Below, in pieces: positions 4,755 to 29,232 of a DNA stretch of 36,912 nt. Every line of letters begins with the position of its first letter. Positions within the stretch are counted from its first letter, which is position 1. Below the pieces are notes generated by a model. That model saw only the letters and a program-made list of their open reading frames with translations, searched no databases and was not told where the DNA came from. Both the position numbers and the translations under genes were made by a program. The DNA is from a virus. The stretch is from the IMG/VR virus record IMGVR_UViG_3300046455_000167, positions 1-36,912 of that record; one strand, given 5' to 3'.

Positions 4755-6056
4755 TTACTGGTAGGTAACGTCGAGGGTCGGGGCGAACTCGTAGGCGCCA
4801 CTAACACGCGCCGTGATGTAGCCGGGGCCAGCCACGGGGCCGACATCGGGGTCGGTGTTGGCCGCGATGGTGAGGGTGGTTGTGAAGTTGCCTGATGCGT
4901 CCGTGGTCACGAGGGAGTTGGTCGAGTACCAGTCGTCGTAGACATCCACCTCGACACCCGGCGCGAAGCCCCGGCCCAGCACCGTGAAGGGGACACCGAG
5001 GGTGATGAGTTCGGGGACGTTGATCTGCTTGGTGGTGGTTCGGACGGATGTGGAGGCGTGGGGTGTTCCGGTCCATGCGGCGGTGAACTCGCCCTCGGTG
5101 CTGTCTCCGTCGAAGTAGTCCTGGCCGTTCTGCATGGAGCCAAACTTGTCGAAGAAGACCTCCCTACCCGCGAGCCCCGTACCCAGGTTGCCTTCGACGC
5201 GAAGCACCAGCCGGCGCCCCACGGCAGTCGGGTAGTCCGCCACTCGCGGCCCGTAGATGTAGAGCGTCTGCCATACCCCATCGTTCTGGAAGTAGCCGTC
5301 GTCGTAGCTGGTGACGGTCTGGACATCGTTGCCTCCCGCGTCCACGAGGTAGATGTTGGCGTACACGGAAGCGCCGCCAAAGCTGTCTGTGGTGGGGATC
5401 ATCACGTCGATGCACGCGCCGTAGCCCGTGCCTGGGAGGTCTATGGTGGCATAGTTCACCTGGCTCTCGGTCGTATTGGCGAGAGTCATCTTCATGCAGG
5501 AGTCTCCCCGGTTACCTCCCGTGGCAGGGCTGATCGAGGCCACGTTGGTCCAGGTGTATCCAACGGGCGGATCGTCTGAGGTGTAATCCGTCAGAGGGTA
5601 GTCCACGGTCCAGCCGGCGATGCCGTTGTGGAAGGTGGGGTCCGTGACCCAGTTGGTGTCCGCCAGCAGCGAGCTCCAGACGCCCGTGGCAGGCTCGGGC
5701 GCGGCAGGCACGTAGTAGGAATCGGGATCGCCTGCGGGGAACTCCTTGGGCAGCTGCACGGTGTCGTGCCGGCGAGCAACCCACACCCCGCGCTTGCCAT
5801 CGAACGTGAGCAGGTCCCCGTCCACCGCGTCCCGGATGTCCAGGTCCTTCAGGCTCGGGAGCTTCAGCTGAACAGGGTTCTGGATGCTGGGGGCATCGCC
5901 CTGGTTCAGGCCCTTGGTGGGGTCGCTAAAGTCGATGCCGAAGTCAGCGCAGATGCGCCGGGCCACAGCCTCGATAACCGCCAGCTTGGCCAGTGCGTCA
6001 TCGACGTTCCGCCCCCATTGCTGGGAGCTGGCCGGCAAGTCCTTATGTGTCCTCAC
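4755..6056 (-). CDS. Minor tail protein with carbohydrate-binding-like domain
   Basis: A 433-residue protein. An N-terminal helix (about 10-45) and a short DGDLLTFDGKRGVWV motif resemble tail-fibre attachment regions. Residues about 135-320 (FHNGIAGWTVDY ... NYATIDLPG ... VYANIYLVDAGGNDV ... LRVEGNLGTG) have the look of a CBM4/9-type jelly roll, a sugar-binding module. Residues about 345-433 (TLGVPFTVLGRGFAPGVEVDVY, LVTTDASGNFTTTLTI) are an immunoglobulin/IPT-like domain. Together these suggest binding to cell-wall polysaccharide. The start is a GTG overlapping the TGA of the larger minor tail gene upstream. Confidence 0.7.
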   Translation of the reverse strand: MRTHKDLPASSQQWGRNVDDALAKLAVIEAVARRICADFGIDFSDPTKGLNQGDAPSIQNPVQLKLPSLKDLDIRDAVDGDLLTFDGKRGVWVARRHDTVQLPKEFPAGDPDSYYVPAAPEPATGVWSSLLADTNWVTDPTFHNGIAGWTVDYPLTDYTSDDPPVGYTWTNVASISPATGGNRGDSCMKMTLANTTESQVNYATIDLPGTGYGACIDVMIPTTDSFGGASVYANIYLVDAGGNDVQTVTSYDDGYFQNDGVWQTLYIYGPRVADYPTAVGRRLVLRVEGNLGTGLAGREVFFDKFGSMQNGQDYFDGDSTEGEFTAAWTGTPHASTSVRTTTKQINVPELITLGVPFTVLGRGFAPGVEVDVYDDWYSTNSLVTTDASGNFTTTLTIAANTDPDVGPVAGPGYITARVSGAYEFAPTLDVTYQ

Positions 6057-9000
6057 GAGTTGCCTTTCAGGGGTTTGATGTTGAATTGCCGGATCGTGCG
6101 CCCGGCATGCCGGGCCTTCTCGTCCGCGATGGTGGCGCCGGGCGGGTAGCTGGCGACGTAGGCGCCGATAGTGGTGTGAGGCACCGCGTTGCCAGAAACC
6201 TTCGAGGCTGTCTGCTGGGCGTCCAGGATGCGGTAGTTGCGCGAGTTGTCCGTTACGAGGGTGCCGGCAGGGTACTGCCCGAGGCCGGTGGGGGTCTCGA
6301 AGGTGTTGGGCAGCTCGTAGCTCACCTCGGCCACGCTGGAGCTGTAGACCATCGCCATCGCCATCGCGGTGTCGTAGGTCTCCATCAGCCCTGCGATGAA
6401 CGGGGACTCGAACACGTTGTCGAAGCCCTCCCGGGCGTTCTTGGCCCCGGTGGGGATGTGGACCTCCTTGGGATCGTTGATGACGCCCGAGCCGGAGATG
6501 TAGAGCGCCGGCCTGTCAGCGGCACCCTCAGAGATGCGGTACGGAGCCCGCACGCTGTCCACTCGCGGCGCGGTGATCTTGATGGCGAGTTCGCCTTCCG
6601 TCTCGGTCAGTGACACCTCGACCTTGCCGCCGTTGTCCAGCCACCACTGCGGGGAGATGATGTAGCCGTCCGCGCCTGTCACCACGTACTGGCCGTCGCC
6701 CTTCTTGTAGGGGAAAGGCAGGATGCCGGGGACCGGGACGGGGTTGACCACGTTGCTGATGCTGTGGGTAGTCTGCACCGTGGTCTCGAACACCTCGCGG
6801 GAGTTGAGCTGGAACACGCTGTCCGCACGCCAGAGCACCGCGTCATCCGTGCTGACAGCCTTGGACTGCTTGTTGACCACGGCCACCTGCTTGTACTTCT
6901 CGCGGCGCTGGGAATCGGCGGTGAATGTGGCCCACGCCCCGGGGTGCGAGAGCTCGGTGATGCGGGGTGCGACGTGCATGGCGGCTCCGATGAATCGCAC
7001 GTCGAGCCGGGCAATGGAGCAGAACTCGGTGAGCATTTTCCAGACGTTGCCTTTGAACCCGGAGACAAACCCGAAGCTCTTGCCGGTCTGGGCGAGCACC
7101 TTCTGGACAGCCGGCAGCTCCATCGGGTGGCTGTCTGCCACCGTCAGGTACGTGCCCCAGCGGGTCATCTCGGCGCCGGAGCCTCCGGTCGAGATGTGCT
7201 GGAGAGACGTGAGCTTCAGGACACCGGGTAGCGCGTAGGCCACGGTCGCGGGTGCGCCGTCGTGCTCCAGTGTCCCGGCGCCGGCCAGATCGTCCGTGTG
7301 GGCGGTCAGCTTGACCGAGAGGGTGGTGGAGGTCAGGCGCTCCAAGGAAACTGTCAGGCGGTAGGCTGCTCCGCTGGGCACACTGGCTGAGGCGATGGTC
7401 GAGGAGCCGAGGTTGGCTGTGACCGTGCCGTCCGACTCGGCCTGCAGGGTTAGCGTGTGGGCGGCGTCCTTGGCATCCCGGAACCTCCACACAGCCTTGG
7501 CGGTGCGCCCGGAGCCGGCAAGACCCACGCCGATGCTGAACGCCAGCTTCTCCCCCAAAGCCAGGCTGAGGACAACCGCGCCGTCCTTCACCTCGTGCAA
7601 TGCCGTGGTTCCCGTGACAGCGGAACCGAAGGTTTTCACGGAACGCCCGTTGACCACCTGAGTGGTTGTGGCTCCTCCGGTGAGCTTTTCGGAGAAGCGG
7701 GCTGTGGTGCTCGCCCCGTAGGCGTCGGTGTGCCCGAAGCCGGAGGCGTAGGTGATGCACTCGCCGGGCACCTTGTCGTAGAACAGGCCTGCCTGCTGGG
7801 TCCAGTAGTCGATGGCCCGCGCAGCCGTCCACTTGCCTGGGTTAGGGTCGAGGAACGGGCGCAGGTGCATCTCAGTGTTCAGCGAGGTCAACGGGGTGTT
7901 CATGGAAACGCTGGCGTTGCCGCTGTTCGCCGGCAGGTTGAGACGGACAATCTCGCCCTCGTAGGTGCCGACAGCGCCGTTGCTCAGCACGTTGTTCTCG
8001 CCCAGAGCGAACTCGGGGTCGGTGCCCTTGACGTAGACCGCGCTGACAGACGGGGTGGAGCCCGAGCCCTCGGCAGGGTTCAGCGGAACCGCCGAGGTGC
8101 TGATCGTGAAGCTTGACAGCTTGCCCAGAGCGCCGGACTGCACGCTCTGGGAAGGCGCGGGAGGAAGGATCGTGGGCACACTGAAGGTGGAGGTCAGGGT
8201 GCCTGCGCCTGAGAACCCCGAGGCGATGTGGATGAGCCGCGCCAGGGTGGAGGAGAGTGAGCCGCTGGCGCTGAACGCGCTGGTGATGGTCCGGGCAGGC
8301 CGGGTCACTGCAGAGGACAGAGTGCCCGAGCCGGAGAAGCCCGACTGGATGTAGGAGCCAACGTGTGAGGTGAGCGAACCGCTGCCACCGAAGGCAGAAC
8401 TGATCGTCCGGGCCGATCGAGTCAGTGAGGAGCTGAGGTTGCCCGTGCCCGAGAGGCCCGAGCCGATGGTCCGCTCTCCGCGAGTCAGGGCCGAGGAGAG
8501 CGCACCGGAGCCACTGAGAGGCGAGGCAATCGTGCGCGGAGCACGGGCAAGCCCCGATGACAGCGTGCCGGTGCCGGACAGGGCCGAAGTGAACTTACGC
8601 CCAAGCTTGGAGGCAAGGGTGCCGCTACCGGACAGGGCAGAGGCAATGCTGCGAGCCGGGCGAGACAGGCTGCTACCCAGAGTGCCAGAGCCGGTGAATG
8701 AGGATGCAATGCTGCTTCCGGCAGTGCCTCCCACCATAACCTGGGATACATACGTGGTGCCCGTGCTTCGCTGGGCCGTGAAGGAGTGGGCCTCGCTGGT
8801 GGTAGGTGCCCGATACACCGTTCCCATGAACCGGGTATCGGTGGACATGCTGGTGGTCGTTTCCGTCCAGCCCGTGGAAGGGGTCGTAGCGGTGACGGAG
8901 TTGGCTGCAGAATCGGTGAAGCTGAACCCAAGCACGAGCTGCCCGGGGCCAGCTGTCTGTGTCGGCGTGGTCTTCGCGCCCGTTCCGAATGTGGACACGC

Positions 9001-19957: not shown

Positions 19958-21124
19958 CTAGGGCACGATGTACTGGCTGGGAGCTGCGGTAGCTTCCGCG
20001 CCAGTGGAGGCCAGGAGGCCCTGACCGTTGAGGAAGGCGCCTGCCACTACGTGGCGGACGCGGTACTCTCCGGTGTCGTTCAGCAGCGAACCCTCGGTGC
20101 CCGGAACAGCGCCGCCACCAAGGTAGTTGCCGCCCGTGCCGGAGATGCGAAGCTCGGGAGCCTCGTGGTTCTGCAGGAAGGCGACACCGATGGAATCGCG
20201 GGTGCCGTCCTTGCCGCCGTCCGGTACGAGGTACCAAGTGGTGGCCGAGTTGCCGGTCTGGTCGATCTGCTGCAGCCAGTCCGTCGCGGTCAGTGCCACG
20301 TCGGAGTTGGTGGTGCCGGCCTTGATTTCGCTGGTGTTGCCGGCGTTGCGGATCGTCAGCTCCTTGACGGAGAGCAGGTACTCGGCCTGATCCTTCATGG
20401 AGGTCGGAACGATGAGGCGGAACTTGGGAACCGTCACGAAACGTCCGTTGACCTTGCGGGCACGGATGGCCTTCTTGGCGAGAGCCAGGGAGTCCAGGGA
20501 GAGCTTGTACTGCTTGTCGAACAGGCTGCCTGCGTTCAGGTTGCCGTTCGGGGCAGAGAAGGTCACCGCGTTCGGGCCACCAGCGGAGGCCAGGATGCCG
20601 TAGGCTTCCGTGTCCTCGGTGTTGGAGGCCAGCTCCAGCATCTTGGTGGGGATGGACTTGATGAGGTTCCACTCATCGTTGATGACCATTTCCCAGGTGA
20701 ACGGGAACCGCGCACCTTCCTTGTAGAGCATGATGCCCGACGCGGAGGTGGTGAAGCCGAAGGAGGGGTACTCCGTGCCTTCAGGGACGCGGGGGAGCGA
20801 CTGCGGCTTGGTCTTGGCGCCGCCGTTCTCGTCCAGGTTGGTGTTGTCATCGAAGTTGAACTCGCGGAACCACTGCGGCTTGAAGTCGTTGAACTTCAGC
20901 TCGACGGCGAAGTCCTTCCACGTCTGCACGCGCTGGGCGTACTGCTTCTTGAGCTTCTGGGAGACGCCGATGCCGAAGGCGGCAGCGAGGTCCGAGCTGG
21001 AGAAGGACTCCGTGATGTAGGCGGTGCCGTCCACGAGTGCCTTGACGCGGCCCTGCGCGGTGCGGTCACCTTCGAGGGCGAAGCCGAAAATCTTACCGGC
21101 TTCTGCGATGGTCTGGATAGTCAT
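19958..21124 (-). CDS. Major capsid protein
   Basis: A 388-residue protein with the length and layout of HK97-fold capsid proteins of actinophages: a helical N-arm, a spine-helix region (about 180-240), the tryptophan- and glycine-rich A-domain loops (DWLQQIDQTGNSATTWYLVPD) and a beta-rich C-terminus ending VRHVVAGAFLNGQGLLAS. It lies after the protease/scaffold and decoration genes and is followed by two terminator hairpins, as expected for the most abundant virion protein. Its gap to the decoration gene is only 11 bases. Confidence 0.9.
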   Translation of the reverse strand: MTIQTIAEAGKIFGFALEGDRTAQGRVKALVDGTAYITESFSSSDLAAAFGIGVSQKLKKQYAQRVQTWKDFAVELKFNDFKPQWFREFNFDDNTNLDENGGAKTKPQSLPRVPEGTEYPSFGFTTSASGIMLYKEGARFPFTWEMVINDEWNLIKSIPTKMLELASNTEDTEAYGILASAGGPNAVTFSAPNGNLNAGSLFDKQYKLSLDSLALAKKAIRARKVNGRFVTVPKFRLIVPTSMKDQAEYLLSVKELTIRNAGNTSEIKAGTTNSDVALTATDWLQQIDQTGNSATTWYLVPDGGKDGTRDSIGVAFLQNHEAPELRISGTGGNYLGGGAVPGTEGSLLNDTGEYRVRHVVAGAFLNGQGLLASTGAEATAAPSQYIVP

Positions 21125-26794: not shown

Positions 26795-26852
26795 GCCTGC
26801 AGGGTGAATAGTCCTGCGGTCGTACTCATGGGAGGGACATCGGGAGTCCCCG

Positions 26853-26912
26853 TGGACTGTAGGGGCTCGAACCCAACGGCCCCCGGCAGGTGAACCCTGC
26901 TAGGCCAGTCCG
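26853..26912 (-). tRNA. tRNA-like element, degenerate, identity uncertain
   Basis: On the minus strand a CGGACTG/CAGTCCA acceptor-like stem (six pairs, with C opposite A at the end) encloses a GCAGG/CCTGC hairpin with GTTCA loop and a T-arm-like GGG TTCGAGC CCC. The T loop sequence is typical of tRNA, but a D arm is missing and the total is only about 60 bases. It may be a decayed tRNA or another structured RNA. If the central loop is an anticodon loop, it would read TTC with G where T33 is expected. Confidence 0.35.
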
Positions 26913-26974
26913 CCAGAGGTTATCGCCCTCCGGCTCGCTTCTTCCTCCAGACTTTCACTGGCATGAGGTCGAGT

Positions 26975-27044
26975 GGGACTGGCCGGAATCGAACCGGCGA
27001 CCTCCCCATCAGTCGAGGGGGCTCTACCATTGAGCTACGGTCCC
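26975..27044 (-). tRNA. tRNA gene, anticodon uncertain
   Basis: The minus strand folds as a near-complete cloverleaf: acceptor GGGACCG/CAGTCCC (one mismatch), D arm GCTC-AATGGTA-GAGC, anticodon stem CCCC/GGGG, and T arm GCCGG-TTCGATT-CCGGC. The D and T arms are canonical. The anticodon loop CGACTGA (or a nine-base TCGACTGAT) lacks the normal T at position 33, so the anticodon cannot be assigned with confidence, and the gene may be non-functional or unusual. CCA is not encoded. Confidence 0.7.
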
Positions 27045-27195
27045 TTATCCACCTAGCCGCTTCTCGGATACGGCACCCGTCCAGGCCTAAAGGTTTACCG
27101 GGATTCTACAATTTCGGTGGACTTTCCCCGGATTCCTTTTGATCGGTCACCCGGGTACAACTTTCGGCTGATTTTTCACAATCAGCCAATTTAGG

Positions 27196-27253
27196 TTGGT
27201 GGGCGCATGTATGTCGTTTGAAAGCTTGGGTTAGCGACCCAAGGCCCCACCAA
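27196..27253. other. Nested stem-loop element of unknown role
   Basis: An outer 8-base perfect stem TTGGTGGG/CCCACCAA encloses an inner perfect stem CTTGGGT/ACCCAAG with a five-base loop. Just left is another 8-base stem, GGCTGATT/AATCAGCC. The region lies between the tRNA genes and the integrase and has no ORF of its own. It could be a small RNA, a terminator group or a regulatory site for the integrase. Confidence 0.4.
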
Positions 27254-27259
27254 TTCTGC

Positions 27260-27343
27260 TTATGCGGCTACAGCCTCATCGACGGTGAGCCAGCGGACCA
27301 GCACTTCTGCCGCCTCCTGGATCGCCTGCTCTTTGCTCGCCAT
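27260..27343 (-). CDS. Possible 27-residue protein upstream of the integrase
   Basis: The frame MASKEQAIQEAAEVLVRWLTVDEAVAA has a good GAGGAGC Shine-Dalgarno seven bases before ATG and would form one amphipathic helix. It is divergent from the integrase and the rest of the gap is noncoding. It might be a micro-protein or part of an integrase control region, or a chance frame. Confidence 0.4.
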   Translation of the reverse strand: MASKEQAIQEAAEVLVRWLTVDEAVAA

Positions 27344-27449: not shown

Positions 27450-28850
27450 ATGAGCAAGCCCCGAGCAGCGCTTTACCTGCGCCAGTCCACCTTCAAGGAG
27501 GAGTCCATCTCCCTGGAGCTGCAGGAGCGTGCCTGCCGCGACTACGCCGTGGGGCAGGGCTATGACGTGGTGGCGGTCGAATCGGACCCGGGTATCTCCG
27601 GGCGGACGTGGAAGCGTCCCGGCATCGCCAAAGTCATGGACCTCGTGGAGGCCCGCGAGGCGGACATCATCATCCTCTGGAAGTGGAGCCGGCTCTCGCG
27701 CTCGCGTCTGGACTGGGCCGTGGCTGCAGACAAGGTGGAGACCTACGGCGGGCGGATCGAGAGCGCCACCGAGCAGGTCGATGTGTCCACCTCGACCGGA
27801 CGGCTTGCGCGCGGGATGCTCACCGAGTTCGCCGCCTTCGAGTCCGAGCGCATCGGTGACACCTGGAAGGAAACGCACGCCCGGAGGATCAGGAACGGCC
27901 TGCCGCACCACGGGCTCCCCCGGTTCGGATACAGCTACACCAAGGCCGGCGGATACGTCCCTGACGAGGCCAGCGCCCCAGTCCTGCGCGAGCTCTACCT
28001 TCGCTTCACTGCCGGGGCCACGCTGCGAGAACTGGGCGCTTACGCGGCCTCTGATGGCTTCGAGCCTGAAACCGGCTGGCGTGAGGGCACACTGCGGAGG
28101 ATTCTGGATCGGGGTTTCGGTGCCGGCTACGTCTGGAGCAAGGGCGAGCACGTCAAGGGAGCCCACGAGGCAGTCATCTCCGAGGACGAATGGCTCCAAT
28201 ACCGCGCCCGGAGGGACGCCAGGGGAGGCCGGCCACGCGCCGAGGCCTCCGACTACGCCTATTCAGGGCTCGTGCGGTGTCCCTGCGGCGGCAGGATGGC
28301 CGGGGCTGCCATCAAGCGCAACGGCGTGACCTACCAGCGGTACATCTGCATCATCGGCCAGCAGAAGGGCACCCACAAGGCCTCCACAGTCTCGGATCGG
28401 TACGTGGAGGAGGCCGTTGTAGCATGGCTGAGCCAAATCGCGGCGGAAGTCGATGCAAAAGCATCTACTTTGGAGCCCCCGAAGGCCTCTGGGCTGGAGC
28501 GCAAGCTGTTGCTGCTTACGGGCGATTTGAGCAAGAACCGGGTCCGTATTGATGGTTTGACCCTCAAATACCTCGACGGGGAGGTCTCCACGGAGGTCTA
28601 CGAGCGCCTGAAGGCCAAACTGGGCGAGGAAAAGGAAGCTCTGGAGGCCCGTCTGAGGCTCCTGGAGGCCAATTCGACTGTCAAGCCGGCCCAGATCGTG
28701 CCCAAACTGCTCGAAAACTGGCCCAGGTTGCCGGCGCGGGGCAAACGCGAGATTCTGAGCCGGCTGGTGGACAGAATCGAGCTCCACGAGCGTGAAAACG
28801 ACGCCGTGACGGGCAAACGGCGCATCACGGTGCATGCGGTGTGGGAGTAG
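27450..28850 (+). CDS. int: Serine integrase (large serine recombinase)
   Basis: A 466-residue large serine recombinase. Residues about 4-145 are the resolvase catalytic domain, with the nucleophile in YLRQST (S13) and the arginines of KWSRLSRS (R81, R84). Residues about 155-260 match the recombinase domain (RNGLPHHGLPRFGYSY, TLRRILDRGFGAGYVWSKG). A zinc-ribbon-like region follows at about 274-312 (LVRCPCGGRM, YICIIGQQ), with fewer cysteines than usual, then a coiled coil (about 350-405, LKAKLGEEKEALEARLRLLE). It integrates phage DNA by attP x attB recombination. It is the only clear plus-strand gene. Probably leaderless. Its stop codon lies inside a candidate attP dyad. Confidence 0.93.
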   Translation: MSKPRAALYLRQSTFKEESISLELQERACRDYAVGQGYDVVAVESDPGISGRTWKRPGIAKVMDLVEAREADIIILWKWSRLSRSRLDWAVAADKVETYGGRIESATEQVDVSTSTGRLARGMLTEFAAFESERIGDTWKETHARRIRNGLPHHGLPRFGYSYTKAGGYVPDEASAPVLRELYLRFTAGATLRELGAYAASDGFEPETGWREGTLRRILDRGFGAGYVWSKGEHVKGAHEAVISEDEWLQYRARRDARGGRPRAEASDYAYSGLVRCPCGGRMAGAAIKRNGVTYQRYICIIGQQKGTHKASTVSDRYVEEAVVAWLSQIAAEVDAKASTLEPPKASGLERKLLLLTGDLSKNRVRIDGLTLKYLDGEVSTEVYERLKAKLGEEKEALEARLRLLEANSTVKPAQIVPKLLENWPRLPARGKREILSRLVDRIELHERENDAVTGKRRITVHAVWE

Positions 28851-28897
28851 TCAGTTTGAGTGCTCATATTGACATATCTGCACGCAAACTGACTACT
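28846..28897 (+). other. attP: Candidate attP site (52-base dyad), also hairpin at integrase 3' end
   Basis: Outer 13-base arms AGTAGTCAGTTTG and CAAACTGACTACT are perfect inverted repeats. Inside them GTGC/GCAC and ATAT/ATAT are mirrored at equal distance from the centre, and the central dinucleotide (28871-28872) is GA, non-palindromic. Length, half-site symmetry and place at the integrase border fit a serine-integrase attP. It could also or instead be a terminator, since GTTTTCGGG follows. Confidence 0.55.
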
Positions 28898-28906
28898 GTT
28901 TTCGGG

Positions 28907-28952
28907 CAACAAGAAGCCCCTCACCATCTTCCAAGTGAGGGGCTTCTTGTTG
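28907..28952. terminator. Bidirectional terminator between integrase and minus-strand operon
   Basis: A perfect 18-base stem, CAACAAGAAGCCCCTCAC against GTGAGGGGCTTCTTGTTG, with a ten-base loop. It lies between the convergent ends of the integrase and the 28981 gene and would stop both, with TTCTTGTTG on one side and CTTCTTGTTG on the other as weak T-rich parts of the stem. Confidence 0.85.
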
Positions 28953-28980
28953 CTGCATTCGCTACTAGGCGGATTTCAGT

Positions 28981-29232
28981 CTAGCACTCCGCTTCGAGGT
29001 GCTGCTCCGGGACGAGCTGCGTCTTGTCCGGTGTGCCGTCCGGCATGACCAGATACGCGGGTGATGTCAAGGCCGGCACTCCTGTGATGGTCCCGGCCTC
29101 CCCCAAGTGGATCAGGCCGTAGTCCCTGGTGGCCTTCACCCTCTCGCCCTCCGCATACTTCATCTGGTCGGAGTACCAGAGCTTCTTCCCGGACTCATGC
29201 ACCTCCGGGCGCTTCTCGATGTAGTACGTCAT
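28981..29232 (-). CDS. Hypothetical small protein, end of accessory operon
   Basis: An 83-residue protein, MTYYIEKRPEVHESGK ... HLEAEC. The central stretch (AEGERVKATRDYGLIHLGEAGTITGV) has the spacing of a small SH3-like or KOW-like beta-barrel, and the C-terminal PDKTQLVPEQHLE continues it. Such barrels bind nucleic acid or proteins, but no family was recognised. ATGA overlap with the preceding gene makes it the last gene of the fifteen-gene operon, just before the bidirectional terminator. Confidence 0.65.
   Translation of the reverse strand: MTYYIEKRPEVHESGKKLWYSDQMKYAEGERVKATRDYGLIHLGEAGTITGVPALTSPAYLVMPDGTPDKTQLVPEQHLEAEC

Follow-up and report, generated by a model that had tools for sequence, protein, structure and literature searches.

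Attachment sites used by large serine integrases have been described in Streptomyces phages such as SV1 and phiJoe. Published attPs measure 42–69 bp and consist of an inverted repeat whose spacer is no shorter than 20 bp (PMC4068962). Their location next to the integrase gene (int), together with inverted repeats, is well known (PMC4068962, PMC5311408), and Durrant et al. retained only integrases lying within 500 nt of predicted sites (PMC10083194). Streptomyces phage SV1 encodes a large serine integrase, gp27, that is 33% identical to ours over 71% of the query; as at the locus described here, its attP dyad lies downstream of int, where it was proved by integration and inverse PCR, with attB located in SCO4383 (PMC4068962). 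However, the SV1 site is only 42 bp long (20504–20545) and does not overlap the int stop (20651), from which it is separated by ~105 bases. Streptomyces phage phiJoe likewise combines a serine integrase with an attP next to its gene; the site does not exceed 50 bp, and crossover was predicted at the central dinucleotide of an imperfect inverted repeat, but this attP is positioned 18 bp upstream of int (PMC5311408). Closer in sequence is Arthrobacter phage Maja, whose gp29 integrase is 50% identical to ours. Maja carries a putative dyad centred at int stop +19 with the stop codon within the left arm, as in our phage, although its core is AG and not GA; the stretch of Maja examined bears no attP annotation. 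Within Maja 4998–7378, a serine and a tyrosine integrase are annotated side by side with the dyad between them. Searches of the open literature turned up no article about the gene into which this integrase subfamily integrates.

We analyzed a soil phage genome from an IMG/VR virus record (36,912 bases, the whole of which is referred to as the window). It encodes the large terminase, portal, head protease, and 1572-aa tape measure of a tailed phage, and its portal protein is most similar to those of Arthrobacter phages (46–49% identity). A single protein unites the catalytic, recombinase, and zinc ribbon domains that define large serine integrases (Pfam Resolvase, Recombinase, and Zn_ribbon_recom, each above cut-off), and the catalytic domain of the TP901-1 integrase was matched by sequence. 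Integrases from five related loci (L010–L014) diverge from that of the window (P0001, alignment A1) mainly over the first ~90 residues and are more alike beyond, as though their catalytic portion had been swapped.

The integrase stop codon is overlapped by a 52-base imperfect dyad (Table 1), which an earlier note had read as attP on the basis of 13-base arms, mirrored inner blocks, and a GA centre, all of which are present. The arms, AGTAGTCAGTTTG and CAAACTGACTACT, are perfect 13-mers; between them, mirrored blocks occur at 28860–28863/28880–28883 (GTGC/GCAC) and 28866–28869/28874–28877 (ATAT/ATAT), and the half-sites are mirrored about G28871/A28872. Mirroring extends to 21 of 26 positions, making this the top-scoring 52-mer of the window (runners-up 19, 19, and 18), and a score of 21 was not attained in any of 100 equally long first-order Markov sequences, whose maxima averaged 16.9 and peaked at 18. 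The pattern occurs once in the window even with up to three mismatches allowed, and the 13-mer arm is found at two places only within the whole record, both in the dyad. With a length of 52 bp, perfect arms of 13 bp, and a 26-bp spacer, the dyad agrees with the attP dimensions given in PMC4068962. The two-base core held in common with attB was checked in six relatives only (see below).

Table 1. Features at and around the integrase gene of the window, with the basis of each assignment.
Feature	Position	Strand	Basis
tRNA-Ser gene, anticodon ACT	26973–27044	-	ARAGORN; Rfam also
Large serine integrase gene, 466 aa	27450–28850	+	Pfam domains; TP901-1 match
Very probable attP, 52-base imperfect dyad	28846–28897		Symmetry; place, covariation, and core in relatives; crossover in six prophages
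Left outer arm of attP, includes int stop TAG (28848–28850)	28846–28858	+	Sequence; half-site role inferred
Central dinucleotide GA, predicted crossover	28871–28872	+	Dyad centre; invariant in clade; dyad centre equals shared core in six prophages
Right outer arm of attP	28885–28897	-	Sequence; half-site role inferred
Strong separate hairpin, not part of attP	28906–28953		19-bp perfect arms

The dyad is maintained among free-phage relatives. Scans of viral contigs yielded 16, 10, and 72 loci in overlapping sets, from which a close set of 15 loci had full-length integrases (68–92% identical) and sequence present past the stop. All 15 carry a dyad centred at exactly int stop +21 with core GA (10 distinct sites, 5 repeats). 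When 11 distinct sites, that of the window among them, were aligned, the GA core was retained in 11/11, the central G-A-C was invariant, and the dyad centre was the most conserved part of the site. The arms covary: 9/24 pairs were altered on both sides (shuffle mean 4.8, 0/500 as high). Loci whose integrases are 53–59% identical (L012, L097–L101) have the dyad at +21 or +23 with cores TC, GG, and GT. We also scored 28 loci, selected from the 72-locus scan and the window as probably unintegrated (int away from the contig end). The dyad score was matched by at most 1/300 shuffles in 24 of them and was weak in L123 (11/300), while L017, L103, and L126 lacked a convincing dyad at this place. Altogether, the comparison provides 19 distinct sites resembling attP, all at one place.

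More distant relatives include integrated prophages. A genome-collection scan and a family search returned bacterial integrases of 38–55% identity, and 12 genomes were fetched around int. Six prophages (G030, G033, G105, G259, G170, and G004, the order used below; integrases 42–54% identical) were solved at both ends; the remaining six genomes (G002, G350, G001, G003, G005, G006), not solved at both ends, were left out of this count. Like the window, the solved prophages have a homologous integrase, located at the prophage end, and an attP dyad at the int stop; their cores, unlike that of the window, are AA, AG, or GT. The target of these six is a small gene that neighbours a TadE-like gene. 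In five of them, the first half of this host gene lies shortly past the int stop in antisense, and the second half, beside the TadE-like gene, is found 36.7–44.8 kb upstream; in G004, the gene is split likewise in the opposite orientation. In the five, the split gene encodes ...RGDVPGWVMIT-L-M..., and in all six the prophage breaks the gene at one equivalent position, within a Leu or Val codon. The small gene may be DUF4244/Flp-pilin-like, but its best Pfam match, TgpA_N, stayed below the threshold and NCBIfam gave no match; only its neighbour was confirmed, as TadE-like.

The small gene is uninterrupted in three genomes (L158, L159, L160) from the same genus as G033. Comparison with orthologs places the crossover at bases 1 and 2 of the Leu codon, or of the corresponding Val codon in G004, with the register set by ortholog length; G033 and G004 share three bases, so their core is fixed within one base only. 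A first register, joined at a repeated TGA with common dinucleotide GA and a dyad centre one base off, was dropped in favour of cores AA, AG, and GT because the uninterrupted orthologs are 6 bases shorter. The cores shared by attL and attR are thus AA, AG, AA, AG, AG, and GT. In the rebuilt attPs, the best dyad centre coincided with this shared core in 6/6 prophages, at int stop +31, +19, +19, +13, +13, and +25, with dyad scores of 18, 17, 16, 14, 12, and 17 of 24, reached by 0, 0, 0, 2, 21, and 0 of 3000 shuffles. With an unconstrained centre, the G170 site scores weakly (602/3000 shuffles as high), and the symmetry of the rebuilt attBs was not significant in the six prophages. The int stops of G033 and G105 also fall within the left arm, the arrangement seen in the window. 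The attP claim of the earlier note is therefore supported: junctions of six relatives rebuild a dyad on the shared core 13–31 bases past the int stop, and the contrary outcome it had named, junctions upstream of int as in 27060–27260, was not seen in these prophages.

For breadth, we counted 83 loci with an integrase match and set aside 22 with <40 bases past the int stop. Half of the same small gene followed 8–90 bases past int in 15/61 loci, compared with 16/3000 random segments; the remaining 46/61 include free phages and prophages elsewhere. Among the latter, by our reading of the sequence and with no match from any tool, int is followed by a putative transporter gene in G002 and, in G005, by a different small gene that precedes a TadE-like frame. 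Related prophages occupy the same small gene in both orientations (G030, G033, G105, G259, and G170 versus G004, also G003, L108, L111, and L152), and in the solved prophages, the core is the first two bases of whichever Leu or Val codon is in use.

We consider it very likely that the dyad serves as attP for the large serine integrase that the phage itself encodes, because its place relative to int is fixed, its arms covary, its core is invariant, and distant relatives cross over at the homologous dyad, and also because its symmetry is beyond chance and its length and layout fit published attPs; the solved prophages that bear on this reading have integrases only 42–54% identical and other cores (AA, AG, GT). 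Half-site binding and strand exchange of the following kind are established for large serine integrases. An integrase dimer would occupy the two half-sites, with the recombinase domain on the inner part and the zinc ribbon on the outer arms, and would synapse with a dimer bound to the host attB. Both strands would then be cut at the predicted GA crossover, leaving 2-base overhangs, followed by rotation and religation. In the lysogen, int would lie at the extreme end of the prophage and retain its own stop, with host DNA starting ~21 bases past it. PMC5311408 supports this scheme in part.

A symmetric sequence at the end of a gene could also be a terminator, or a hairpin stabilizing the 3′ end of the int mRNA, with attP elsewhere. 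The dyad overlaps the int stop, the RNA fold of 28830–28920 beats 200/200 shuffles (z −3.87), and GTTTT follows the dyad. Intrinsic terminators are compact G+C-rich hairpins with a short loop and a T run, whereas the perfect arms here stand 26 bases apart. The most conserved part of the site is its centre, which would be the free loop, relatives recombine at the homologous place, and a hairpin with 19-bp perfect arms follows immediately. This hairpin is probably the int terminator, although it has no long T run and is not listed by a consensus terminator scan; the same scan, empty across 28700–29100, counts against a terminator at the dyad while also missing its neighbour. We regard termination at the dyad as very improbable because the would-be loop is conserved and the adjacent hairpin is stronger, which bears out the argument of the earlier note that a plain terminator would not need the inner blocks; hairpin formation by the dyad may be a by-product. 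The motif CAAAAGAAAACC recurs just past attP in many relatives (among them L006, L070, L071, L091–L095, L012, and L100) and is followed there by a G+C-rich hairpin, probably a shared two-way terminator.

Other phages have attP upstream of int, as reported for phiJoe (18 bp; PMC5311408), and the window carries an inverted repeat there, TTGGTGGG...CCCACCAA, around a second hairpin (27193–27256), so that the dyad at the stop might serve another use. That repeat is absent from 6/6 relatives compared (integrases 76–92% identical), and dyad scores upstream of int in the window do not exceed 12/22. An upstream attP is highly implausible because the hairpin is missing from these six relatives and the solved prophages recombine downstream of int. 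The 7-base loop at 27193–27256 reads TCGCTAA on the reverse strand, and the element may represent a degenerate tRNA. Beside the tRNA-Ser gene, a stretch at ~26850–26920 contains a T-loop-like GGGTTCGAGCCCC on the reverse strand, but neither ARAGORN nor Rfam calls a tRNA there; tRNA-like stretches appear to occur at the corresponding upstream place in relatives. Alternatively, the dyad could be an operator with a purely regulatory role, recognized by a repressor or by the integrase, since symmetric, covarying arms would fit any dimeric DNA binder; it sits, however, at the 3′ end of the gene, 28700–29100 yielded no promoter-like site, and relatives cross over at the homologous place, leaving regulation alone with a negligible probability.

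In the genomes searched, we found no prophage belonging to the clade of the window, and no integrase exceeded 55% identity among the matches listed. The search covered a genome-collection scan (6 loci, the best at 47% identity), one family in two largely overlapping sets (395 and 385 genomes), another family (299 genomes), three small genera (3, 5, and 2 genomes), a larger genus (198, then 206 genomes), and 396 genomes of the order. Pattern scans of viral contigs for attP halves (6 and 9 stretches) returned only contigs with intact sites, and 368 plasmid records had an integrase match, every one at <60% identity. Because no own-clade prophage was found, the GA crossover is taken from symmetry and homology. 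Matching the attP centre of the window to the target gene of relatives for attB prediction gave nothing that stood out, so a link between GGACRT and the GDVPGW codons is no more than a lead.

Positions 28846–28897 are thus very probably the site where phage DNA is cut and joined to the host chromosome, an ordinary attachment site of a kind already known for serine integrases and what specialists would expect. The int–attP cassette (27450–28897) is compact and may serve in Arthrobacter-like soil bacteria, and the 19 distinct sites together with six solved integration sites form a series for attP recognition and target change. We tentatively hypothesize, as a possibility we hold to be rather less likely than its negation, that the family shares an ancestral target, the Leu/Val codon before Met in ...GDVPGWVMIT-L/V-M... 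beside the TadE-like gene, and that the core dinucleotide tracks the codon. Under this hypothesis, AG would correspond to CTN and AA to TTG, both antisense, and GT to Val GTG in sense with the prophage reversed, whereas the window clade (GA) and L097/L098 (TC) would have moved to a new target with attP still fused to the int stop. If true, target switching by serine integrases would be readable directly from a sequence series.
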